Source: a virus. From it: a stretch of 46,544 bases of DNA. The stretch is from positions 1 through 46,544 of the IMG/VR virus record IMGVR_UViG_3300020171_000048. One strand, written 5' to 3'. The notes under the pieces are model-generated. The model was not told where the DNA came from. It ran no database searches and saw only the letters and a program-made list of their open reading frames with translations. Below, in pieces: positions 306-44,781 of this stretch (position 1 is the stretch's first letter; each line of letters opens with the position of its first letter). The position numbers and the translations under genes were made by a program.

Positions 306-652
306 TTGAGTTCCTCCAGGTGCTTCAGTTTCCGTCCGGCCACATCGCCGTCGTTCGCCATCCTCAACAGGTAATTCCTGAAAGCGCTGATCGCGTGGAC
401 TCCACCACCTAAGAATGCCGCATTGAGCGCCACGGCGTCGAGTGTCCGGGCCTCTGACTCGGGGCTCCAGAACGAGCTCGCACCGGCCGAGGCGGCCTCC
501 TTCCTCAGGAACGGGTCCAGGTTCTCAGCCCAGAGCCTAGATGATAGCAGGGTAGCCGCCTCGCGGCCAAGGCTTATCTCGGCACGGCAGGCGACCATCT
601 GCTCCTCGCGCCTGAGCCTGCGCTCCTCGTTGAGTTCCTTGTCGGTTGGCAT
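302..652 (-). CDS. Hypothetical protein (116 aa) downstream of portal
   Basis: Unrecognised. The N-terminal 30 residues are highly charged and probably helical (K-E-L-N-E-E-R-R-L-R-R-E-E). The middle is alanine- and serine-rich, and the C-terminal helix ends K-L-K-H-L-E-E-L-K. There is no signal peptide or membrane segment. The start overlaps the portal stop (TGATG at 650-654) and the stop overlaps the next start (ATGA), so it belongs to the tightly coupled late operon. Its position just after the portal suggests a virion or assembly factor, which is inference only. Confidence 0.7.
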   Translation of the reverse strand: MPTDKELNEERRLRREEQMVACRAEISLGREAATLLSSRLWAENLDPFLRKEAASAGASSFWSPESEARTLDAVALNAAFLGGGVHAISAFRNYLLRMANDGDVAGRKLKHLEELK

Positions 653-2802
653 CAGGCGCTCGGCGTGCGCGGAGTCATATCAGCGACGCCCTCCCTCGAA
701 TTTGCCCGGGTCGGGCTGTTCCCTGCGATGAGCGACATCGACCCGCTCTTGGCGAATGTCTTCTGCCGGGTGATGGCGCCCGGGTCCTCCAGGGCGCCCT
801 GGATAGCCGCGGCCGTGGCCTGGATGTGTGCCCTTAGCCTGAGCAGGACATCCGGGGATATCTTCTGGTTCTGGATGGCCTCGCGGATCATGGGCGCGTT
901 GAACTGCTCGACATGCTCGGAGTAGTGCCCGACCATGTTCTCCAGAGGGTTGACCTGGACCTGCTTGCCCTGGAGCATGAGCTGGAGTTCGTTCTCTGGG
1001 GTCAGCACGCCGTCCGGCATCCTCAGCACGCTCGACATGTCCGCGAATCCGAACCGCTTGAGCTCGAGTCGCTTGATCTCAGAGAGCTCCACCAGCGGCC
1101 GGGTGCCGGGCGGGAACTGGGCCATGATGGCCTCGTTGTACTTGATCGACTGCTCCAGCAGGACCATGAGTTGGTTCCTGGCCAGCGCGTCATCGCCGAA
1201 CGACGGGTCGTACTCGATGATGAAATTGAAGCTGCGCCCATCGGTGTGGATGTCCCAGAGGTCGAGCTCCATCATGCCGGTCGAGCCGTCCGGGCCGTGG
1301 ACCTCGTACGCGGTCTTCTCCATGTGGAACTGGAGGGCCAACTGCTCCATCGCCCACATCTGCTTCTGGAACCCGGCGAGCTCCTGGCGCCTGATGGACG
1401 CCATGCGCTTGGCCGATTGCGACGCTATCTCCTGGAGCCCGCCCAGCGTGTCATGGGATTGCTTCGTGCCCCCGTAACCCTTGGCGAAGTCCGGCATGCC
1501 GAGCGCACGCTCGATGATGCCCTTGTCGTTGGACTCCTGGGTGAGCATCGAGGGCGACACGTCTTGCTGGTCGAAGGCGTGCATCTCCGACGCCACGGTC
1601 CGGCCCATCTGGGGGTCCACCCTGATCTTACCGCCGGCCCTGGGCTTGAAATCGTCCTCGGCATGGGTGACTGCCTGGGGGTTGTAGGCCACCATCTTGT
1701 TGATAATGCGGATCCAGTTCCGCATGCTGAGGATGTGGATGTCGTCGAGCTCATACAACTGGTGTTCGACAGGCTCGAGCATCCCAAGTCCGAGAAGAGT
1801 AGAAGGTTGCGGTGTGCAGAGCTTGAGTCGGTATCTGAGGCCAGGCTTGTGGTACAGGTTCTCGATGTAGGCAATGACATATTTGTTGTTGGCCACGCAC
1901 CAGACCCGATCTACCTCCCAGACCCACGCGAGCGTCATCTGGTCCGTGTCGTCCTGGGTGGCGGCCGCCTCGTTGCTGCTCTGGCCCTCCATGATCTGCG
2001 AGAGCTGCTGCTTGTGGGATGTGACCCAGGACTCGATATCTACCGGCGTGATCTTGGCGCCGCGGGCGCGGTCCTTCTCGACCTCGGTCAGGTCGAAGAA
2101 CGGCACGCGCTGGCCGGCCTGGTCGATGTAGTGGGCCTCCTTGAGGTCCTCGAGCGCCACGTTCTCCTCGATCTCGACGATCCACTTCATCTTCTCGACT
2201 GAGATCTTCTTAGGTTGCGGGAAGACGTTGAATACCGACGGGAACCTGGTGTAGTACCCTACCTTGATGGGAACCTGCTGGTCGATCTCGACGGTATCAG
2301 TGAACGGTTGCCCGTTCTCGTCGAATACCTCCTGCTTGGCCCACGCCTTGCCCTGCCGGTACTGGAACGCCCAGCAATCGACCTCCCAGGACCAGCCGGT
2401 GATGGTGCGCTCGCGGACGCTGTTGGGGAAATCGGTCTGGTAGGCACCCGACCCGAAATACGACCTGGCCATCCCGTTGAACTTCATCGCCGCCGACTCG
2501 TCCTTGAGCAATTTGGGCTTGGCGGGTGTCGGGACCCTTGAGTTTAGGATGGACTCAGACAGCCCAGCGACCGAATCCTCGATGATGCCGTAGGCGTAGC
2601 AGACGCCGGTGTTGGGTTCGTCCTCGTCATCGACCGCGTCCTTGATGGATTTGTAGATCTTGTAGCACCGGATGGCCGTGTCGAGCTTCGGGCTGTAGTA
2701 ATCGCTGCTGGAGCGCAATCGCTGGCCGGTCTTGCTGATGAGATCGACACGCTTGGCCTCGTCCGCGGCCAGCTTGGCCATCGTAAGTCCCTCGGTGGCC
2801 AT
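652..2802 (-). CDS. Portal protein (head-tail connector)
   Basis: Portal proteins form the dodecameric ring at one capsid vertex through which DNA is packaged and ejected. This 716-residue protein follows the large terminase by one small gene. It contains the typical central portal pattern: a V-W-E-V-D-R-V-W stretch, a glycine-rich turn G-L-G-M-L-E-P-V-E-H-Q-L-Y-E-L-D-D, then a long helix R-N-W-I-R-I-I-N-K-M, followed by glutamine- and alanine-rich helices (clip and barrel type). The size matches the large portals of N4- or SU10-like short-tailed phages. Start: ATG at 2802 overlaps the upstream stop (TAATG). The ATG at 2781 has a better spaced GAGGG and is an alternative. In-frame codons further upstream only shadow the neighbouring gene. 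Confidence 0.85.
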   Translation of the reverse strand: MATEGLTMAKLAADEAKRVDLISKTGQRLRSSSDYYSPKLDTAIRCYKIYKSIKDAVDDEDEPNTGVCYAYGIIEDSVAGLSESILNSRVPTPAKPKLLKDESAAMKFNGMARSYFGSGAYQTDFPNSVRERTITGWSWEVDCWAFQYRQGKAWAKQEVFDENGQPFTDTVEIDQQVPIKVGYYTRFPSVFNVFPQPKKISVEKMKWIVEIEENVALEDLKEAHYIDQAGQRVPFFDLTEVEKDRARGAKITPVDIESWVTSHKQQLSQIMEGQSSNEAAATQDDTDQMTLAWVWEVDRVWCVANNKYVIAYIENLYHKPGLRYRLKLCTPQPSTLLGLGMLEPVEHQLYELDDIHILSMRNWIRIINKMVAYNPQAVTHAEDDFKPRAGGKIRVDPQMGRTVASEMHAFDQQDVSPSMLTQESNDKGIIERALGMPDFAKGYGGTKQSHDTLGGLQEIASQSAKRMASIRRQELAGFQKQMWAMEQLALQFHMEKTAYEVHGPDGSTGMMELDLWDIHTDGRSFNFIIEYDPSFGDDALARNQLMVLLEQSIKYNEAIMAQFPPGTRPLVELSEIKRLELKRFGFADMSSVLRMPDGVLTPENELQLMLQGKQVQVNPLENMVGHYSEHVEQFNAPMIREAIQNQKISPDVLLRLRAHIQATAAAIQGALEDPGAITRQKTFAKSGSMSLIAGNSPTRANSREGVADMTPRTPSA

Positions 2803-3167
2803 TATCGGTTCATCCCCATGCGCTCCTTGAGCAGGTCCCTGGAGAGGTCCTCGTAGGAGTCCATGCCCTCGAACAGGAGGCCGCATTGATGCTCGCGCTG
2901 GAGTTGGTCCCCGGCGTAGTCGAACATGTTCTTTCGGAACTGGTGGTCTTTCTCGGCGGATCTGGCCTGGCCCTTGGTGAGCTTGAGCTCGAAGGTCGCC
3001 TGGCTCTGGCAATGCAGGCAGGTCCCGCGGGCCATGATGCGGTCGTTGTAGTAATTGACGGAGATCGGCCCCTCGAACACCTTCCTGTCAGGGTTGACCA
3101 GCTTGGCCAATCCGATCCTCGGCCCGCCCCCTACGACGTTCCCGTAGGCATCGAGCAGTTGGCCCAT
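2802..3167 (-). CDS. Hypothetical zinc-ribbon-like protein between terL and portal
   Basis: No family recognised. It is 121 residues from the ATG at 3167, chosen because it follows a GGGGG ribosome site and sits one base after the terL stop; an in-frame ATG at 3182 lies inside terL. A C-L-H-C pair near residue 50 and H-Q-C-G near residue 93 could bind a metal. The C-terminal part is strongly helical and charged. Small genes between terL and portal are common in short-tailed phages, and some encode packaging or head-completion factors. That role is inference here. Confidence 0.7.
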   Translation of the reverse strand: MGQLLDAYGNVVGGGPRIGLAKLVNPDRKVFEGPISVNYYNDRIMARGTCLHCQSQATFELKLTKGQARSAEKDHQFRKNMFDYAGDQLQREHQCGLLFEGMDSYEDLSRDLLKERMGMNR

Positions 3168-3168
3168 C

Positions 3169-4749
3169 CTACACCCCCACATGTCCGTTCGGCCTGATCT
3201 TAGGCCGGAAGAATATCATTTTTCCGGCTCCGGGTTCCAGTGGTGCGATATATCTTTCGCCGGCCTCGGCGCCGTAGCGCTCCAAATCGGGGAAGTCCTT
3301 ATACTGCAACATCGGCATCTCGCTCTGGCCGCGCCGCTCGTCATGGTTCTCTTTGTAGCCGTAATGCGACATGCCGAACCTGCTGTTGTGGCAATGCTCG
3401 AGCCAGAAATAATCAGGGGTCACGCCCTTGAAGGGATCCCCGAGCAGACCCTTGACCTTCATGTGCCCAGGGACCACGGCGTCATCCGGGAAGAACATCC
3501 GCCTGAGCTTCCCGTCGGTCACGGCCTTGTACGCTTTGAAGAACTCCTCGGCAATAGAGCTGACTGTCTCGCCGGTCATCGAGGCCGACGGCCCGTAGTT
3601 GGGGTCCATGATGGTGGCGTGCGCCGGCTTGCCCACGCCCAGCGCCGCCTCGGTGATCTTGGTCAGCTTGGCGTACTGCTTGAATCCCCAATGCCAGGAC
3701 TTGATCTTGTGGAACGGCCGCATGGACATGTCCGGCCACTCGGCCACGCAGAAGCTCTTGCCGTCCGGGAAGAACGCGCGCCAGTTGGTAGCCCATGGCT
3801 TCCTGCCGTGCGGGTCGATGCGCTGCCAGAGCGTGTAGAGCCCCTTGGCCCAGCAGTCGGCGTAGTAGGGCGGGAACTCAGGCAGGGTGTGGCCGCTCGG
3901 GTCATCCCGGAACATGTTGTAGATCGCACCGGCCTTGGCCCGGCTCTTGCCGTCCCTGCGCGCAAGCAGGTCGTCATCATCGCAGTCGCGCCACTGGTCC
4001 TGGAGCGCTTCGTGCGGCATCATCCCGCGGATTCCGTGGGTGATACAATTTTCCTCCGCCGACAGCTCCATGCAGAGCACGTCGTCGCTCAGGCGCTCGA
4101 TGGTCTCGAATTCGTCGGAGTAGAACGCTGGATGCTCGGATTCCTGGTCAGTGTAGAACAGGAAGATAATCCCGCCGAACCGGAACCTGAACTTGAGGGC
4201 CTTGAAATGCGCCCGGCTCATCGGCTCATCGACGATGGCCCAGTTGAGCGTGATGGATTCTCCCTCAGACGGGTCCTGCTTGAAGGTGAAGACATCGAAT
4301 TGCGAGCCCGTGTCCGGGAATCTGTAGAGGTCGTTGAAGTTGCGACCGCGCTTGCTCGATTTGTAGCGTCCGCGCCGGAGCCACTTGGTGAACTCCATGT
4401 CGTAGTTGTTCTCGGCGGCGTTCGGGGTCGTCAGGATCCTGCCGCGGTTGGGGCGCTGGAACTCGCGCAGGTAATCGACCTTGTCCAGGTAGGCGTTCGG
4501 GTAGTTGTCGGAGAGGTAGCTCGCTAGGCTGACGGCAGTCACGGTCTTGGAGAGTCCGTTGCCACCCCGCATCATGGCGATGTAGATTCGGTTGGATCCC
4601 GGCCTGAATCTCCGGTTGAACTCGGTCAGGAATCGCTCGATGCCGCCGTTGGGCACCCAGTACCGGCATTTCTCCTCGACCAACCTGCGCTGCTGCTCGG
4701 CGCGGGCGCTCGCCTGGGCGTTGCTGAGCTGCGGGTCGGTCGCAATCAC
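3169..4749 (-). CDS. terL: Terminase large subunit (packaging ATPase/nuclease)
   Basis: TerL couples ATP hydrolysis to DNA translocation into the prohead and cuts the concatemer. The 526-residue protein has a deviant Walker A near residues 60-68 (R-G-G-N-G-L-S-K-T, the terminase type with an upstream basic residue). The Walker B W-A-I-V-D-E-P lies near residue 175. A C-terminal RNase H-like nuclease half begins at M-D-P-N-Y-G near residue 377. The start codon is GTG at 4749, overlapping the terS stop by four bases (GTGA). The gene is followed by the 121-residue gene and the portal, the usual order. The nuclease acidic triad beyond the first aspartate is not assigned. Confidence 0.93.
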   Translation of the reverse strand: MIATDPQLSNAQASARAEQQRRLVEEKCRYWVPNGGIERFLTEFNRRFRPGSNRIYIAMMRGGNGLSKTVTAVSLASYLSDNYPNAYLDKVDYLREFQRPNRGRILTTPNAAENNYDMEFTKWLRRGRYKSSKRGRNFNDLYRFPDTGSQFDVFTFKQDPSEGESITLNWAIVDEPMSRAHFKALKFRFRFGGIIFLFYTDQESEHPAFYSDEFETIERLSDDVLCMELSAEENCITHGIRGMMPHEALQDQWRDCDDDDLLARRDGKSRAKAGAIYNMFRDDPSGHTLPEFPPYYADCWAKGLYTLWQRIDPHGRKPWATNWRAFFPDGKSFCVAEWPDMSMRPFHKIKSWHWGFKQYAKLTKITEAALGVGKPAHATIMDPNYGPSASMTGETVSSIAEEFFKAYKAVTDGKLRRMFFPDDAVVPGHMKVKGLLGDPFKGVTPDYFWLEHCHNSRFGMSHYGYKENHDERRGQSEMPMLQYKDFPDLERYGAEAGERYIAPLEPGAGKMIFFRPKIRPNGHVGV

Positions 4750-5516: not shown

Positions 5517-5546
5517 AGAATACCCGCGTTGTGCCACAAAAGTCAA
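5517..5546 (-). promoter_or_regulatory. Putative promoter for terS/late unit
   Basis: On the minus strand TTGACT (5546-5541) and TATTCT (5522-5517) are separated by 18 bases, matching 5/6 and 4/6 of the sigma70 consensus. The pair lies just after the hairpin that ends the Tad1-like cassette and about 45 bases before the terS start, which is the place expected for the late-unit promoter. Confidence 0.5.
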
Positions 5547-5585
5547 GAGCCCCGGCGGCAGGAGGTACGGAACCCGCCGGGGCTC
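5547..5585 (-). terminator. Perfect 12-bp hairpin between Tad1-like gene and terS
   Basis: GAGCCCCGGCGG (5547-5558) and its exact complement (5574-5585) flank a 15-base loop. On the minus strand the stem is followed by TTGACTTTTG, a poor but T-biased tail; on the plus strand the tail is CTGTTTTA. It is probably a transcription terminator or attenuator closing the small cassette upstream. The weak U-run leaves termination efficiency uncertain. Confidence 0.65.
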
Positions 5586-5609
5586 CTGTTTTATGGATCT
5601 GTCGCTGCG

Positions 5610-5945
5610 TCAGCGGACGGTCGCGTGCGTCTTGTGCGTGCCCTCCACGCCCTCTTTCTCGCGCCGGGTGGTCCGCTCGTTCAGGATGCGGATAGCCTCA
5701 TTGACGTGCATGAGCGCCTCGGAGTTCTCCTGGCAGGGATACTTGCTCTCCTGGTAGAATTCCAGACGGACCTTCGCCGCCTTGAGCACTCCCTCGACGA
5801 ACGCGCCGGTGGGCTCCTTGCGGTCCTTGCCGCGGCCGAGCGGCCCGTCCTGCCAGGTGATGGTGATGCCGGTCCCCATGACCGTTCCGCCGGTCGGGTT
5901 GCCGTCCGAGTCCGTCGCGTTTCTGAATTCGATGTCTTGGTTCAT
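5610..5945 (-). CDS. Tad1-like (Acb2/Tad1 hairpin) candidate anti-defence sponge
   Basis: The 111-residue protein matches a family I recall as Tad1-like phage proteins that sequester signalling nucleotides of Thoeris (and, in some members, CBASS). Visible features: a strand region G-T-G-I-T-I-T-W-Q-D-G-P near residues 24-35, then a G-A-F-V-E-G-V helix, F63, the C-x-E-N-x-E-A-L element (N74), a helix ending R91-T-x-x-R, and the G-V-E-G-T-H-K tail at 99-105. The 17-residue N74-R91 spacing equals that between two ligand-binding residues I remember in the Clostridium Tad1 (N92 and R109). F63 lies 11 residues before N74, against 10 in my recollection of Tad1 (F82). Start ATG 5945 has AAGGAG four bases upstream. 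Family assignment is from memory and function is inferred. Confidence 0.6.
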   Translation of the reverse strand: MNQDIEFRNATDSDGNPTGGTVMGTGITITWQDGPLGRGKDRKEPTGAFVEGVLKAAKVRLEFYQESKYPCQENSEALMHVNEAIRILNERTTRREKEGVEGTHKTHATVR

Positions 5946-5959
5946 AACTCTCCTTGGGT

Positions 5960-6115
5960 TCAGCGTTTCTTGCGGACCGGCTTCTCGCCGGCATAGCGCG
6001 CCCGGACGAACGCTTCGGCTTTTGGTCTCGAGTCGGAATGTCCGACGACATCGCCGGTGCCCGTCCGGTAAATTATGTACTGCCCGTCTGAGCGGCGGCG
6101 GATGCTATAAGGCAT
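5960..6115 (-). CDS. Small basic protein (51 aa) upstream of Tad1-like gene
   Basis: Starts M-P-Y-S-I and contains Y-I-I-Y-R-T-G-T-G-D-V-V-G followed by an alanine-rich helix and a basic K-K-R end. The pattern MPY, beta strand, G-x-V-x-G, then a helix recalls many small phage proteins of unknown function. The start overlaps the upstream stop (TGATG at 6113-6117). The gene is 14 bases from the Tad1-like start and therefore in the same short transcript. Confidence 0.65.
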   Translation of the reverse strand: MPYSIRRRSDGQYIIYRTGTGDVVGHSDSRPKAEAFVRARYAGEKPVRKKR

Positions 6116-6258
6116 CAGTAGGGTTTCACTCCATGGACGGCGCATAAGATGAACCCGATGGTGATGGCCGCGGCGTAGAGCGCGACGATCCATGTGACGT
6201 ACCAGTGGGCATTCGGCGGGATCGGCGGGGTCGGTAGCTGGCATGCCCTTCGGCTCAT
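6115..6258 (-). CDS. Single-span membrane peptide (47 aa), first gene of cassette
   Basis: Forty-seven residues with a short polar, proline-rich N-terminus and one hydrophobic segment (about residues 20-41, W-Y-V-T-W-I-V-A-L-Y then A-I-T-I-G-F-I-L-C-A). No family recognised. The ATG lies about four bases from the start site predicted from the perfect promoter upstream, so it would be translated almost leaderless or poorly. It may serve mainly as the first cistron of the Tad1-like unit. It is overlapped by the next gene (TGATG). Confidence 0.55.
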   Translation of the reverse strand: MSRRACQLPTPPIPPNAHWYVTWIVALYAAAITIGFILCAVHGVKPY

Positions 6259-6268
6259 GATGGCACGG

Positions 6269-6297
6269 ATTATAGCAGGCGAGGCGATGCGTGTCAA
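6269..6297 (-). promoter_or_regulatory. Perfect consensus sigma70 promoter (TTGACA-17-TATAAT)
   Basis: On the minus strand TTGACA (6297-6292), a 17-base spacer and TATAAT (6274-6269) match the bacterial housekeeping consensus at all 12 positions and at the optimal spacing. Transcription would start near 6262 and read through two tiny genes and the Tad1-like gene to the hairpin at 5547-5585. Confidence 0.85.
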
Positions 6298-7012: not shown

Positions 7013-7197
7013 AGCGCTGCCTCCTCGGCATGGCACGGGCAGGTGCAGTAGACGCTGAAGCATTTCCAATGCATGCCGCGGCCGCAGGTGACGCTGACCT
7101 TCTCGGCCATGACGCGCATGCCGATGCGCTTGTCCTTGCCCATCCGCTCGCTGGCCCTGCACCGGCTGATTCGGATCGTCGAGTGTAGGGGGGTCAT
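7009..7197 (-). CDS. Small cysteine-rich zinc-binding-type protein (62 aa)
   Basis: The C-terminal half has closely spaced cysteines and histidines (C-G-R-G-M-H-W-K-C, then Y-C-T-C-P-C-H), suggesting a bound zinc. It overlaps both neighbours by ATGA junctions (7009-7012 and 7194-7197) and so is translationally coupled to the initiator gene. ATG 7197 is used; ATG 7143 is a possible shorter start that keeps all cysteines. No specific family is recognised. Confidence 0.6.
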   Translation of the reverse strand: MTPLHSTIRISRCRASERMGKDKRIGMRVMAEKVSVTCGRGMHWKCFSVYCTCPCHAEEAAL

Positions 7198-8468
7198 GCC
7201 GAGCCCTCGTCGCTCACTAACCCGCCGGCCTGGCGCAGGGCCTTGGCTCTGGCGGCCTGGCGGCGCAGGGATGCCTTGCCCGCTTCCTCGATCTCGGAGA
7301 TCCCGCCCAACGTCTTCTGGAGGGCTTCCTGGTCTGGGGTCAGGGCTGGCTCAGGCTCCGGCTCAGCCTCGAGTTCCCGCTGGATGGCCTCTGCGGCCGG
7401 CTCGCTCGCTGATGCCCCAAGGACCACCGGCTCCGGGGCAGCTGCGATCGCGGCGTTCATCACATCGTAGAGCGTCCCCGCGTTCTGGGCCCTGTCGAAC
7501 GGGATCAGGTCCTCATGCTTGGCCAGCCGGATGACCGCTGCGTTCGCGTTGCGCCATGCGGCCTCAGCATCATCGCGGGTCTCAAAGCTGGTGGAGTTCC
7601 AATCCTTGTGGTCTGCAGGGTAGTACTCCGGGTGCCCAAGTAGGCCGCGCTCCCGTACGCTGTCCCGGCGCCCGCTGGGCAGCAGCCCCGGGGTCGTGCT
7701 CAGCGGCGCCCACTTGACCATCCCCTCGTTCCAGGTGTCAGGCTGGGGGTCCCCCCAGCGCCAGTGCCGGCCCAGCGGCGCGTGGGGCATCAGGGCCTCC
7801 CAGTGGGTCCGCTTACGCGGTGGGGCGGGGGGCCCGGCCGGATGGGGGGTGGGGGCCTTTCCTGGGCCGTTGCCGCTCGATTCTGGTTGGGGGGAGACAT
7901 TTACTTCGGGTATTATATTTACGCGCGTGGGTACCCCCTCTGTAAGCTCTGAAGACTCTGTGCGCGCGTTCTCAGACCCTCTCCTGCCGGGGGATACGAC
8001 CCTCTCCTGCGGCAGGATATACCCCTCTCCTGCCGGGGGATACCCTTCCTTAGGAGATGTCCCTTGGCAGGATATCCTGCGGCGGGGGATATAGTCATGC
8101 TCGAACTCCCGGCCGTGCATCGGTATCCGCCACTCCGATATCTTGGTGTTGAACCCGATCTGGGGCTCCTTCTCGGTGCCCCCCAGCTTCAGGACATCAG
8201 AGCTCTCCATGGCCCTACCAGCGTCCCTGATAACCTCCCACTTCCGGCCGAGGTCCTTGGCTATCCTCTGGATGGAGTACGGGGTCATGCGCTCAGCGGT
8301 CCATGGCCCGGCGCCGTCCTTCTTGCGGTTGCCGTACGTATGCCAGAGCACCCACATAGCGACGGCATACTGGGCCTCTGTGAAGTCCGTCCTGGCTATT
8401 TTTTCGCATAGGTCGCTGGCGAACTTGAACCACCCGTCGTCGGTGTCTGCTTTTTCGTGTGAGTGCAT
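7194..8468 (-). CDS. Phage replication protein O-like initiator (424 aa)
   Basis: The N-terminal about 110 residues fit the phage O-type DNA-binding domain (Phage_rep_O): F-K-F-A-S-D-L-C-E-K-I-A-R-T-D-F-T, then a V-L-W-H-T-Y-G-N-R-K-K-D-G core, then winged-helix-like helices around S-I-Q-R-I-A-K-D-L-G. In lambda, O binds iterons and recruits the helicase; a dnaB gene is present at 21594-22928. The middle (about residues 126-164) is low-complexity because it carries DNA repeats. The C-terminal half is proline- and alanine-rich with acidic helices. Start ATG 8468 has GAGGG upstream; in-frame codons up to 8561 overlap the promoter and are rejected. Expression comes from the promoter at 8552-8580. 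Confidence 0.75.
   Translation of the reverse strand: MHSHEKADTDDGWFKFASDLCEKIARTDFTEAQYAVAMWVLWHTYGNRKKDGAGPWTAERMTPYSIQRIAKDLGRKWEVIRDAGRAMESSDVLKLGGTEKEPQIGFNTKISEWRIPMHGREFEHDYIPRRRISCQGTSPKEGYPPAGEGYILPQERVVSPGRRGSENARTESSELTEGVPTRVNIIPEVNVSPQPESSGNGPGKAPTPHPAGPPAPPRKRTHWEALMPHAPLGRHWRWGDPQPDTWNEGMVKWAPLSTTPGLLPSGRRDSVRERGLLGHPEYYPADHKDWNSTSFETRDDAEAAWRNANAAVIRLAKHEDLIPFDRAQNAGTLYDVMNAAIAAAPEPVVLGASASEPAAEAIQRELEAEPEPEPALTPDQEALQKTLGGISEIEEAGKASLRRQAARAKALRQAGGLVSDEGSA
7897..7922. other. AT-rich stretch beside iterons (candidate DNA unwinding element)
   Basis: Within otherwise GC-rich coding DNA, 7897-7922 (core TATTATATTTA) is markedly AT-rich and lies about 50 bases from the iteron array inside the same gene. 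In lambda-type origins an AT-rich segment next to the iterons is where strands first open. The role here is inferred from that arrangement. Confidence 0.55.
7975..8093. repeat. Iteron-like array inside the initiator gene (candidate origin)
   Basis: The motif TCCTGCSGSNGGAT recurs with cores starting at 7982, 8005, 8028 and 8075, with a degenerate copy (TCCTTAGGA) at 8048. The first three are exactly 23 bases apart, and flanking CCCTC and GGGGATAC are also conserved. Each core is partly palindromic, the clearest being GCAGGATATCCTGC at 8067-8080. Because 23 is not a multiple of 3, successive copies are read in different codon phases, so conservation must be at DNA level. Position in the middle of an O-like gene mirrors ori-lambda. 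Confidence 0.75.
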
Positions 8469-8551
8469 GAGGCCCTCTAGAAAATAACGGAGCCCCTGGG
8501 CGCCTTCCCGCGCCGCAGGGGCAAACTTTTGCCTGGGAAGAGGCTGAGAAA

Positions 8552-8595
8552 ATAATAGCATGTGGGGTTTTTGTTGTCAAGTGGAAAAAAATAAA
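8552..8595 (-). promoter_or_regulatory. Strong leftward promoter with AT-rich upstream element
   Basis: On the minus strand TTGACA (8580-8575), a 17-base spacer and TATTAT (8557-8552) match 11 of 12 consensus positions. Directly upstream (8584-8597) lies a T-rich run resembling an UP element. Start would be near 8545, giving a leader of about 77 bases with a small hairpin (GGCAAA/TTTGCC) before the initiator ATG at 8468. Confidence 0.85.
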
Positions 8596-26266: not shown

Positions 26267-27364
26267 CTAGAACCTGGCCGGCCGCGGGGTGCTCTTGGCG
26301 GCCGCGGGCTTGGGCTTGTCCTTGGCCGGCTCCGCCTTCTTCTCCTCGGCGGGCTTGGCTTCGGGCTCGGGCTCGATCTCGTCATCAAGCCGGTCGGGCT
26401 CCCCTGCGGGGGCGGGCGGAGCGGGCTTCTCCTGGAGCTTAGCCCTGGCCTGCTCGGCCGGGCTGGGCCCCTTGTCCTCCGGTGGCTGGCCGCCCAGCTT
26501 GCGCTCGAGCGCGGCGCCGCCGTGGGGCATCAGGTCGTCCGGGATCTCCTTGTCGAGTTCGGCCTTCTTGGGCATCCCGGCCGCGGGGATGGGTGCGGGC
26601 AGGGCCTTGACGCCAGGCTGGAAGGTCATCAGGCTGTCCGTCGTCCCATCGTACCTGATTTCCAGATGGAAGATCGTGACCGGCTTCCCCTCGACCTGGC
26701 ATTTCTTTGGAACGAGCAGGAGCTTCAGGGGGAGCATGCTGATTCGCCGGTAGGGCGGCTCGTCGCCCCTCATCGAGTGGATGTAGCTGTTGACGGAGAC
26801 CATCCCATTCCAGGAGGTCGTGCTAATCTCGTAGCACCCAAACCGTGGGACCTTGGGAAGCATGAAAAGGAAGCGTCCGATTCCTTTGCAGAATTTGTTC
26901 CCGGCAAAGGAGCATCGGTCGCCCAGGCATGGCATCTCGAACATCTCTCCGACCTTGACATCGTCGATACCCTCCTCCTTAAGGAACGCCTCCCCCTCGG
27001 GATCGAGAATCGTTCCCTTCGCTATCTTCGGGTTCGTCCCGTCGGCCTTGCCGACACGCACCCTGAGCGCCGTGACCATGTCGTAGCACGCGCAGAAAAG
27101 TCCCGATGTGCGGTACGCCTTGCGACCTTGCGGGAAGAAGACGTCCGGGTTCTCGACGGGGAGCATGATATCCAGCTCCTTGCAACAAGGAACCCCGTCC
27201 TTGTCCACCATGTCGTAGACCTCGGCCACCCAGGGCACGTCCTTGAAATTGAAATGGTCCAGCTTCGACGGGTACTCCTTCCCGGCCGCGTTCTTCTTCT
27301 TCTCACCCAGCCTGATCTTCCCCAACCTCGGTAGACGCCTCACGTCGCTGATTCCCTTAATCAT
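26267..27364 (-). CDS. Recombination-directionality-factor-like protein (365 aa)
   Basis: Starts M-I-K-G-I-S-D-V-R-R-L-P-R-L-G-K-I-R-L-G, the hallmark opening of a family that includes the phiBT1 gp3 excision factor. It continues with K-E-L-D-I-M-L-P-V near residue 62 and a cysteine cluster C-L-G-D-R-C-S-F-A-G-N-K-F-C before F-L-F-M-L-P-K-V near 150-175, also typical. The last about 110 residues are proline-, alanine-, lysine- and glutamate-rich and disordered. Many phages with this protein have no serine integrase, and none is seen here, so a general DNA-metabolism role is likely. It is the first gene after the promoter at 27501-27529. Confidence 0.65.
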   Translation of the reverse strand: MIKGISDVRRLPRLGKIRLGEKKKNAAGKEYPSKLDHFNFKDVPWVAEVYDMVDKDGVPCCKELDIMLPVENPDVFFPQGRKAYRTSGLFCACYDMVTALRVRVGKADGTNPKIAKGTILDPEGEAFLKEEGIDDVKVGEMFEMPCLGDRCSFAGNKFCKGIGRFLFMLPKVPRFGCYEISTTSWNGMVSVNSYIHSMRGDEPPYRRISMLPLKLLLVPKKCQVEGKPVTIFHLEIRYDGTTDSLMTFQPGVKALPAPIPAAGMPKKAELDKEIPDDLMPHGGAALERKLGGQPPEDKGPSPAEQARAKLQEKPAPPAPAGEPDRLDDEIEPEPEAKPAEEKKAEPAKDKPKPAAAKSTPRPARF

Positions 27365-27500: not shown

Positions 27501-27529
27501 ATAGTACCACGCAGTCACATCCATGTCAA
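27501..27529 (-). promoter_or_regulatory. Promoter (TTGACA-17-TACTAT) for tRNA-like element and RDF operon
   Basis: A perfect -35 box (27529-27524), a 17-base spacer and TACTAT (27506-27501) lie just upstream of the tRNA-like element. The expected start near 27494 is about four bases from its 5' end. The next gene starts at 27364, so the element would form the transcript leader. Confidence 0.75.
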
Positions 27530-40857: not shown

Positions 40858-41523
40858 TTATGCACCTCTCGTTCCTTCAAGATAACGAATCGCAGATGTC
40901 ATGAGTTCCACGTCGTCCCTGAACTGCCCAAGCCCCCAGTTGCACATGTTGCATAGGAGGCCACGAATCCTTCCAGTCGAGTGATCGTGGTCTACGCAGA
41001 ATCTCCCGTTCTGCCCACCCGGGTCGGTCGTGCCGCAAATCGCACACCCCCCGCCTTGGACCGAAAGTATCTCGTCGTACTGCCCGACTGTCATCCCATG
41101 CCTGTACAGGGTTCGGCGTACCCTGTTTTCTTCCCCGTATCTTTTTGATTCGAGTGAGGAGCATGACTTGCACATTGTCATGATCCCGCTATGCCTCCGA
41201 TTTGCTTTGTAGAATTCCGATTTATGCTTACGCGTTCCGCACCTATTGCAATTCCTGAAACCGTTTTCGTCAAGGGCCGGCTTTCCCGGCCAAGTCATGC
41301 CCTTATATACCCACGGTCTCTTCATCTCCCTGATGGTAGGGATTCCCCTTGACCTCCTCAGCGCATCCATCCTGGCGGACGCATCGGCATTAGTGCATGA
41401 CTTGCACGGTACCCGATGCTTCCTGAAATCGGACTTTGGCTTAGTCTCGCCACACCGTGGACATGTGGAATAGGGGACGGAGACAGTTTCCGCAATGCCT
41501 GTCTCCGTCCCCTCATCTGCCAC
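40858..41523 (-). CDS. Recombination endonuclease VII family protein (221 aa)
   Basis: Endonuclease VII (T4 gp49 family) is a His-Me/HNH-fold nuclease cutting branched DNA. The C-terminal core has Y-D-E-I-L-S-V-Q-G-G-G-C-A-I-C-G, then F-C-V-D-H-D-H-S-T-G-R-I-R-G-L-L-C-N-M-C-N, the metal site plus four zinc cysteines. Two C-P-R-C / C-x-x-C zinc modules precede it (near residues 21-45 and 90-125). The proposed start is GTG 41523; any later ATG would lose the first zinc module. A perfect palindrome lies inside its first codons. Between two capsid-side genes it looks like a homing-type insertion. Confidence 0.8.
   Translation of the reverse strand: MADEGTETGIAETVSVPYSTCPRCGETKPKSDFRKHRVPCKSCTNADASARMDALRRSRGIPTIREMKRPWVYKGMTWPGKPALDENGFRNCNRCGTRKHKSEFYKANRRHSGIMTMCKSCSSLESKRYGEENRVRRTLYRHGMTVGQYDEILSVQGGGCAICGTTDPGGQNGRFCVDHDHSTGRIRGLLCNMCNWGLGQFRDDVELMTSAIRYLEGTRGA
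41472..41513. repeat. Perfect 15-bp inverted repeat at start of endonuclease VII gene
   Basis: AGGGGACGGAGACAG (41472-41486) and its complement (41499-41513) flank 12 bases. It falls 21 bases past the stop of the capsid-neighbour gene and within the first codons of the endonuclease gene. It could be a terminator, but no T-run follows. Its sequence resembles chromosomal REP-type palindromes, suggesting it arrived with the nuclease gene. Confidence 0.7.
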
Positions 41524-41533
41524 TAGTCGAATC

Positions 41534-42403
41534 CTACTTCTCGTACCAAAGACATTCGGCGAAGTTCGAAGCTGCCTGGACGCCCGTGATCTGCCCGAGC
41601 CCGACGCCGATAACGACGTGCTCGTCCTTGCCGAACTCGAGGAACCCGCTGTCATCGAGGACGTCGATCGGGATCTGCTTGTCGGTATCGTCAGCCGTGA
41701 CGGCCCGCCAGACCTCGGTCGTGTCGTTGCGCGTGACGCCATCGGACGAGCCCTCGTACTTGCGCAGCTTGCCGTAGACCCTGACCGTGTCGGCGATGTT
41801 CGCGTTGACGGTGCAGGTTTTGAGCATGACCCTCCGGCCCGAGTTCGGGGTGATGCCGACTCTGATGTCGTAGACGCCCGTGTTCCCGGTCGGGGTCGTG
41901 GCCTCGCTCTCGTCGCTGAACTTGAAGTTCGCGCCGCCGCTGGCCTTGAGGTTGTTGGTCCCCGTGGTAGCGGTCTGGTCCCTGAGCCTGATGGTACCGT
42001 CGTCACGCTTGGCGCCCAGGAGCGAGCAGTTGTAGTCGTCAAGCGCGTCGATGACGTCGCACAACTCGCCCATGGTGTCGTAGGCCGCGGAGAACAGCGT
42101 GTAGCTGCTCGCGGAGGCTCCGAAGTTGCTGGAGTCCGCGGTCCCGGCCGGAGCGTAGGCCGTGATGACGGTGGTCGTGATGGTGACGACGCACTCGGTC
42201 GAGCTCCCGACGTAGGTCAGGTTGAGAGCCAGCGAATCCACGCTGGCGACCCGGTACCCGACCCTGAGCTTGGCCGCTTCGGCCGTCTCCATGTCCCTGA
42301 GGCTTTCGGCCTGCGCCATCCTGGGCGCGACCGAAGTCAGAACTGCGAACGTCAGGGCCACCCCGAGGAGGGTTGCCCAGCCCTGCTTGATTTTGCTGGT
42401 CAT
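41534..42403 (-). CDS. Exported protein next to major capsid gene (289 aa)
   Basis: Starts with a basic, hydrophobic signal peptide (G-W-A-T-L-L-G-V-A-L-T-F-A-V-L, cleavage after A-Q-A near residue 32). The mature part is S-, T-, V- and G-rich with five cysteines. The position right after the capsid gene is where phages keep decoration or head-completion proteins, but an export signal on such a protein is unusual. ATG 42403 is preceded by AGAGA-type purines. No family recognised. Confidence 0.6.
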   Translation of the reverse strand: MTSKIKQGWATLLGVALTFAVLTSVAPRMAQAESLRDMETAEAAKLRVGYRVASVDSLALNLTYVGSSTECVVTITTTVITAYAPAGTADSSNFGASASSYTLFSAAYDTMGELCDVIDALDDYNCSLLGAKRDDGTIRLRDQTATTGTNNLKASGGANFKFSDESEATTPTGNTGVYDIRVGITPNSGRRVMLKTCTVNANIADTVRVYGKLRKYEGSSDGVTRNDTTEVWRAVTADDTDKQIPIDVLDDSGFLEFGKDEHVVIGVGLGQITGVQAASNFAECLWYEK

Positions 42404-42428: not shown

Positions 42429-43589
42429 CTATCCGGTTATGCCGGTCATCTTGCCGTGGGTTTCTTCCAGACCGACCTGGAGCCCCATCTCGGTCAAGTA
42501 CTCGTCCTTCCGGCTGTCCTTGTCGTTCGCTTGGATGTTCTGCTTGCGAACGCTGATCCGGCCTTCCATGTGCCGGATGCGGATGTTGGAGATGTCCACG
42601 CCGATCGAGGTACCGGCCAGACCATCGAAGTCGGTCAGGTCGTCGTTCTCGAACAGCTTGTGGTTCGCCAGCATGGCCACGCCGAAGGGCGAGATATACT
42701 GGTTGATGGACATTCCGTATTTCTTCATCATCACGTCGGACACCTGGAGCCTGTCCTTGGCGAATCCGCTGATCGCCTGGGTCACGATGGGCGCGTTGAG
42801 CAGGATCTTCTCGTTGCCGTACCGGAACAGCCTGCGCAGGAAGGCATCGAAGGCCGGCTCGGTGAGCCCTCCGCCGATGTTGACCACCGTGGTCGAGATC
42901 CAGTTCTTGATGCCCCTGGACGCCCGCCTGGGCTCGGTGCTGCTGGTGTCCTCGTAGCGCTGGCCCTCGAGGTTCATCCGCTCGATCTTGGTCAGATGCG
43001 TCCAGAGCATCTCGGCCGCTTCGACCTCGAAGTCCATCCCGGCGTACGTCCGGGAGAGCTTCGCGGTGTTGGAGAGCTCGAACGGGTCCCTGATGATGCC
43101 GACGTAGTTGTACTTCGGCGCCTTCTGGGTCGAGAGCACATCGCGGGAAGTGTCGCCTTCCTCGCTCGCGCTGCCGATGATCTTGAGCTTGCTGCCGTTG
43201 GTCGCCGCGGCCGCGGAGACCTCGCCCCAAGCCCTGGTCGCTGTGACGGTCGTGGTCGAGGGCGTCGCGGTGACGAGGATCTGCTCGCCGGTTTCCATGA
43301 CGAGGAGGATATCCCCGGCACGGAAATACTTGTAGTTTGTGGCCGTGAAGGTCGCGTCATCGGCGCCGTAGGCGGCCCCGAACACGTCCTGGACGGGAAG
43401 GTGTTCCTTCTCGAACCACTCGAACTTCGGGCGCTGGCAGGATTCCTTGCGGAGCTTGCCTCCCAGCACGGTGAGTGGGCCCGCGTTCGGGTCCACCTTG
43501 AGGAGCGCAGGGAAGACGTCCCTGTCGTTTGCCGTCTCTGTGCGCTGAGTCGTGCTCAGGCGCATCCCTTGAACCATGGTCGGTGCCAT
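42429..43589 (-). CDS. Major capsid protein, SU10-type (386 aa)
   Basis: HK97-fold shell protein. The central region (F-E-L-S-N-T-A-K-L-S-R-T-Y-A-G; a helix E-M-L-W-T-H-L-T-K-I-E-R; R-R-A-S-R-G-I-K-N-W-I-S near 225) and the later M-M-K-K-Y-G-M-S-I-N-Q-Y and G-R-I-S-V-R-K-Q pattern match SU10-type capsid proteins. The length is typical. The scaffold gene lies just upstream and both share the promoter at 44752-44781. ATG 43589. Confidence 0.85.
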   Translation of the reverse strand: MAPTMVQGMRLSTTQRTETANDRDVFPALLKVDPNAGPLTVLGGKLRKESCQRPKFEWFEKEHLPVQDVFGAAYGADDATFTATNYKYFRAGDILLVMETGEQILVTATPSTTTVTATRAWGEVSAAAATNGSKLKIIGSASEEGDTSRDVLSTQKAPKYNYVGIIRDPFELSNTAKLSRTYAGMDFEVEAAEMLWTHLTKIERMNLEGQRYEDTSSTEPRRASRGIKNWISTTVVNIGGGLTEPAFDAFLRRLFRYGNEKILLNAPIVTQAISGFAKDRLQVSDVMMKKYGMSINQYISPFGVAMLANHKLFENDDLTDFDGLAGTSIGVDISNIRIRHMEGRISVRKQNIQANDKDSRKDEYLTEMGLQVGLEETHGKMTGITG

Positions 43590-44751: not shown

Positions 44752-44781
44752 ATGATAACCGCTTCGTGGGTGGTCTGTCAA
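44752..44781 (-). promoter_or_regulatory. Capsid-operon promoter (TTGACA-18-TATCAT)
   Basis: A perfect -35 box (44781-44776), an 18-base spacer and TATCAT (44757-44752, 5/6). It lies across the end of the interrupted membrane gene and about 65 bases before the scaffold ATG. Start near 44745. Confidence 0.75.

Follow-up and report, generated by a model that had tools for sequence, protein, structure and literature searches.

The 111-residue protein P0001, encoded on the minus strand of an uncultured phage genome, is a homolog of the counter-defense protein Tad1 and, at a probability of roughly 0.88, is predicted from its sequence and modeled structure to be a Tad1-type sponge that captures nucleotide alarm molecules. 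Judging from its homologs, P0001 would most likely act by sequestering the nucleotide signals of Thoeris and/or CBASS. The window analyzed here is the complete IMG/VR virus record IMGVR_UViG_3300020171_000048 (46,544 bases; GC content 62%). The unit described in the original prediction is present, occupying 6297 to 5547 of the minus strand, and lies, as stated there, between replication and packaging genes: a series of small genes lies downstream of the RepO-like gene, and the unit comes between this series and the packaging genes (Table 1).

Table 1. Features of the P0001 unit and of the surrounding phage genome
Feature	Position	Strand	Basis or remark
Large protein downstream of the terminase-like protein	within 652-4749	-	portal by position only
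Terminase-like protein	3169-4749	-	named via tblastn to an annotated large terminase
Weaker promoter-like site	5517..5546	-	9/12; directly after the hairpin, facing the packaging genes
Terminator-like hairpin	5547..5585	-	folding; perfect 12-bp stem, 15-base loop
Tad1-family protein P0001, 111 aa	5610..5945	-	homology, fold, conservation; predicted pocket Y64, N74, R91, R95; C-terminal V-E-G-T-H
Ribosome-binding site AAGGAGA	5949..5955	-	from sequence; few bases before the P0001 ATG; position +/- a base or two
Possible tiny gene, 51 aa, basic	5960..6115	-	open frame, GC3 0.73
Possible tiny gene, 47 aa	6115..6258	-	open frame, GC3 0.81; a single membrane-spanning stretch seen by eye (WYVTWIVALYAAAITIGFILCAV)
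Consensus sigma-70 type promoter, TTGACA-17-TATAAT	6269..6297	-	12/12; extended -10 (TG before the -10 box)
RepO-like protein	7194-8561
Near-consensus promoter	8552-8580	-	11/12
Gp3-like, recombination directionality factor-like family	26267-27364	-	Pfam E 3e-28
Near-consensus promoter	27501-27529	-	10/12
Perfect 15-bp inverted repeat, 12-base loop	41472-41513		immediately behind the minus-strand gene 42403..41534
SU10-type major capsid protein	42429-43589
Near-consensus promoter	44752-44781	-	11/12

The relationship with Tad1 is detectable already with the single sequence of P0001, which in a search of the PDB matches 8kbb (E-value 1.6e-6), 7uav (5.8e-5) and the phage protein gp184 (8y6v, 7.4e-5). 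In tblastn searches, P0001 matched 51 phage records, among them the annotated Tad1 of SBSphiJ7 (E-value 6e-8, 41% identity over 59 residues); the best matches come from Vibrio Ackermannviridae (41% identity over 95% of the length, E-value 3e-14), and alignment with 12 annotated phage relatives gives 27-43% identity. The IMG/VR search, opened with an alignment of P0001 that included two Vibrio phage relatives, identified at least 102 relatives in viral contigs, of which 80, with 40-61% identity, were retained; an alignment of 73 rows (A4) is the basis of the profile, the structural model and the conservation counts reported here. When the profile search proposed with the original prediction was run with these 73 relatives against the PDB, solved Tad1 structures were matched with E-values of 4.4e-18 (8kbb), 1.5e-15 (7uav) and 5.2e-8 (8y6v), and there was no other significant match, Acb2 being absent. 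Direct comparison of the 73-row profile with SBSphiJ7 Tad1 (hhalign) yields a probability of 99.6% and an E-value of 5.6e-25. Significant homology thus extends to experimentally tested Tad1 proteins, with only the C-terminal ~75 residues of P0001 aligning clearly to them; in its N-terminal part, P0001 is shorter and diverges.

Automatic annotation largely passes over this similarity. P0001 has no match in Pfam, NCBIfam or PADLOC, and this includes the Pfam model PF24729 (Acb2/Tad1 hairpin), for which the curated cut-off of 27 bits is not reached; at E<=1, this model matches 30 of the 73 alignment rows, the best with an E-value of 2.6e-7. Because PF24729 also misses PhiPA3 gp217, a homolog of phiKZ gp184, the failure of this model does not exclude a Tad1. 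In contrast to these libraries, PHROGs v4 contains two families that match P0001, PHROG 2428 (E-value 3e-17) and PHROG 23843 (E-value 7e-12); both are listed there as having unknown function, and the matches suggest that they are Tad1-like families.

The AlphaFold2 monomer model of P0001, built with alignment A4 (pLDDT 93.9, pTM 0.81), has the order b-b-b-a-a, with strands at residues 5-11, 17-24 and 27-31 and helices at 50-65 and 72-97. The model thus contains the N-terminal antiparallel sheet, of three strands rather than four, and the two long C-terminal helices that characterize Tad1. Tad1 chains are the only significant PDB matches of the model: they occupy ranks 1-20 of the Foldseek comparison, headed by 8smd, CbTad1 with 1''-3' gcADPR (E-value 1.1e-5, TM 0.71), and at rank 21 the match falls to an E-value of 0.3. 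Among viral models, the best match is an 'Acb2/Tad1 hairpin domain-containing protein' of Vibrio phage VP-1 (TM 0.88, 1.2 A). The original prediction of a Tad1-like protein was staked on a profile match and a Tad1-like fold, and both were found.

The C-x-E-N, R-T-x-x-R and G-V-E-G-T-H elements from which that prediction started are indeed present in P0001. In the phmmer alignment, Y64, N74, R91 and R95 are opposite F82, N92, R109 and R113 of the 8kbg Tad1 chain (residue numbers counted along the printed alignment), and the latter four presumably line the gcADPR pocket of CbTad1. The 17-residue spacing of N74 and R91, which had been noted to equal that of two ligand residues, reflects homology rather than coincidence because N74 and R91 align with N92 and R109. 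The predicted pocket, with the roles of its residues taken as above, is conserved in the relatives: N74 and the aromatic residue at position 64 are each kept in 72 of the 73 rows, and R91 and R95 in all of them. Conservation extends to G102 (73 rows) and H104 (67 rows), and V-E-G-T-H is found in nearly all rows. The A4 consensus reads D-x-x-G-N-P-x-G-G ... G-x-G ... W-Q-x-G-P-L-G-R-G-x-x-R-x-E-P-N-G-A-F-V-E-D-V-I ... R-L-x-F-Y-Q-x-S-K-F-x-C-x-E-N ... R-T-x-x-R-E-x-R-G-V-E-G-T-H; published pockets also involve conserved loops outside the helices (PMC12043709). Pairwise dN/dS is 0.06-0.27 in the 13 pairs, among the 15 closest, for which it was computable, that is, the relatives are under purifying selection in the pairs tested.

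The ligand range is reported to vary among sponge families (PMC12043709, PMC12657218). In a quick tree, P0001 and its relatives form a compact branch apart from most classic Tad1 (SH-aLRT 92), apart from two long-branch rows that fall among the branch; this separation, the branch-specific conserved elements D-x-x-G-N-P-x-G-G and W-Q-[DN]-G-P-L-G-R-G-x-x-R-x-E-P-N-G, and the N-terminus shorter than that of SBSphiJ7 Tad1 could mean that the Tad1 fold was kept but a different small signal is bound, such as another cyclic nucleotide or ADP-ribose product; the branch would then act as a sponge against a defense outside Thoeris and the classic CBASS set. However, all four residues aligned with the presumed gcADPR pocket are retained, and the best structural match is a gcADPR-bound Tad1; a different signal therefore appears unlikely. 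It is likewise doubtful that the branch is a separate functional group, with a remodeled pocket built from G-N-P-x-G-G and G-R-G-x-x-R-x-E-P-N-G and specific for a signal not bound by tested Tad1 proteins.

As a sponge of Thoeris and/or CBASS signals, P0001 would be produced during infection from its own strong promoter and would assemble into an oligomer, with three dimers arranged in a hexamer, like the solved Tad1. It would bind glycocyclic ADP-ribose produced by Thoeris TIR proteins and probably also the cyclic di- or trinucleotides that CBASS synthesizes. With these signals captured, the effectors would remain inactive and the cell would not commit suicide, to the presumable benefit of the phage. 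The anti-defense part of this scheme is suggested by homology.

The genomic neighborhoods of the relatives are highly diverse. Across 83 related loci, shared neighbor families occur only within small groups of relatives; the adjacent genes belong to terminase, helicase, tail, portal, HNH and thymidylate synthase families, with terminases being the commonest (phrog_2 accounts for 6 of the 101 neighbor proteins). Such scattered neighborhoods are the pattern of an accessory gene moving between phages and, combined with the purifying selection, point to a widespread mobile accessory gene. The label 'moron' attached to the unit originally fits this scatter, but nothing shows that the phage is a prophage. 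Scans of genome contigs identified relatives in only three, all metagenome-assembled, and thus point to no particular host. Structural-protein annotations occur among the relatives, and phage phiKZ injects its Tad1 into the host (PMC13282480), so that the Tad1 fold could serve here in the virion or in a housekeeping role instead of as a sponge. This is quite improbable, given that the injected phiKZ protein still works as a sponge (PMC13282480), that there are no fixed neighbors across the related loci and that the P0001 gene is separated from the head genes and has a promoter of its own.

Several members of the branch carry variations of the common architecture. In L050:3992-4402 and L081:2355-2726, the loop between G-P-L-G and R-x-E-P-N-G accommodates a cysteine-containing insertion (CESEGC...C and CFQPGWGEKDVCVDGC) that might bind metal. 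The protein encoded at L070:4001-4519 consists of 173 aa and has a charged, helix-like C-terminal extension after the V-E-G-T element (here I-E-G-T-Q). The sub-branch formed by L082, L083, L089 and L090 has a longer N-terminus and V-E-G-K-H replacing V-E-G-T-H, and its members always adjoin the same ATPase-like and other genes.

The P0001 gene itself shows a GC3 of 0.90, like the clear genes of the phage. A decayed or inactive Tad1 remnant, which T46 of P0001 might indicate given that 70 of the 73 rows have N at this position, is hardly credible considering that T is found there in two other relatives as well, the frame is intact, the ribosome site is strong, the codon-position GC pattern is canonical and every invariant residue is kept.

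The claim of a perfect promoter stood up to a count over the window: the 12/12 site is the only perfect one in the 46.5 kb, for which an order-1 Markov model predicts 0.0012 such sites. Three further sites on the same strand, with 11, 11 and 10 of the 12 positions matching, indicate that this phage uses canonical promoters generally, apparently depending on those of the host sigma-70 type; the 9/12 site following the hairpin could be a chance match. The unit may be transcribed immediately, independently of the phage program, as originally envisaged, and the strong promoter and ribosome site would fit a protein that is needed in quantity before the alarm signal accumulates. Among the 77 relatives examined, a 10/12 site within 350 bases upstream was found in about 5 and a perfect site in none; a near-consensus or perfect promoter of its own is not a trait of the Tad1-like family. 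At the other end of the unit, the predicted perfect hairpin has exact arms and folds with -40.4 kcal/mol (z -5.2), with 0 of 200 shuffled sequences folding equally well; the T tract behind it is weak (CTTGACTTTTG). A window-wide search for perfect stems of at least 11 bp with loops of 3-20 bases yielded a single other place, the inverted repeat at 41472-41513, which is probably a terminator.

Between the promoter and the P0001 gene, the two tiny genes proposed originally were recovered as open frames, the stop of the 47-aa frame overlapping the start of the 51-aa frame as TGATG; the first ATG, that of the 47-aa frame, is only ~4 bases past the expected transcription start. Neither frame has homologs in the family libraries or in the related loci, and none was detected in the phage collection, which was searched with the 51-aa frame; the match of the 51-aa frame to PHROG_4552 (E-value 0.03) is not significant. 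Because no homolog was found, the two frames count only as plausible genes.

The phage also encodes DnaB, a RuvC-like protein, RadC, an SNF2-type helicase and a PD-(D/E)XK exonuclease. Neither the terminase-like protein nor the large protein encoded downstream matches any Pfam family, and in PHROG neither reaches significance. Terminase and neighbor searches revealed no close kin of this phage; the nearest terminase in the phage collection, from three Caudoviricetes records, is only 28% identical, and the phage therefore belongs to a divergent uncultured group.

A known counter-defense family thus gains a large branch, represented in at least 102 IMG/VR contigs, that is automatically un-annotated. 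Counter-defense surveys relying on the Pfam model or the PHROG names would undercount Tad1 because most members of this branch, P0001 included, escape both. With its short and strongly conserved protein, the branch offers a test case for the ligand range of Tad1 and, should it turn out to bind another signal, would point to a defense pathway yet to be identified.

Altogether, P0001 is best compared with the set of SBSphiJ7 Tad1, CbTad1 (7uav, 7uaw, 8smd, 8kbe, 8kbf) and CmTad1 (8kbb-8kbd). Tad1 sequesters gcADPR and cyclic oligonucleotides as a hexamer, without degrading them (PMC12043709, PMC13282480, PMC12657218). P0001 shares with these proteins the size class, the small N-terminal sheet followed by a two-helix hairpin, and the FQxGP, F/Y-Q, C-x-E-N, R-T-x-x-R and V-E-G-T elements. 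It differs in being ~30 residues shorter than SBSphiJ7 Tad1 (142 aa), mostly at the N-terminus, the longer N-terminal part being absent in the relatives as well; in the three-strand sheet of the model as opposed to the four strands of Tad1; and in the G-N-P-x-G-G and G-R-G-x-x-R-x-E-P-N-G elements specific to its branch. The Tad1 proteins of phiKZ (gp184) and PhiPA3 (gp217) have a homologous C-terminal hairpin (E-value 5e-8 to gp184, 8y6v) but carry a long N-terminal extension that P0001 lacks; phiKZ Tad1, which is injected into the host, acts against both CBASS and Thoeris (PMC13282480). Acb2 employs the same sponge principle as Tad1, and one Pfam model of the hairpin, PF24729, serves for both; however, the Acb2 protomer is all-helical, and the N-terminal sheet is missing (PMC12043709). 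Assignment of P0001 to Acb2 was rejected: the model has three strands, and Acb2 is missing among the sequence and fold matches. Rather than a new kind of protein, the compact branch represents an under-annotated part of the known Tad1 family, which P0001 joins.
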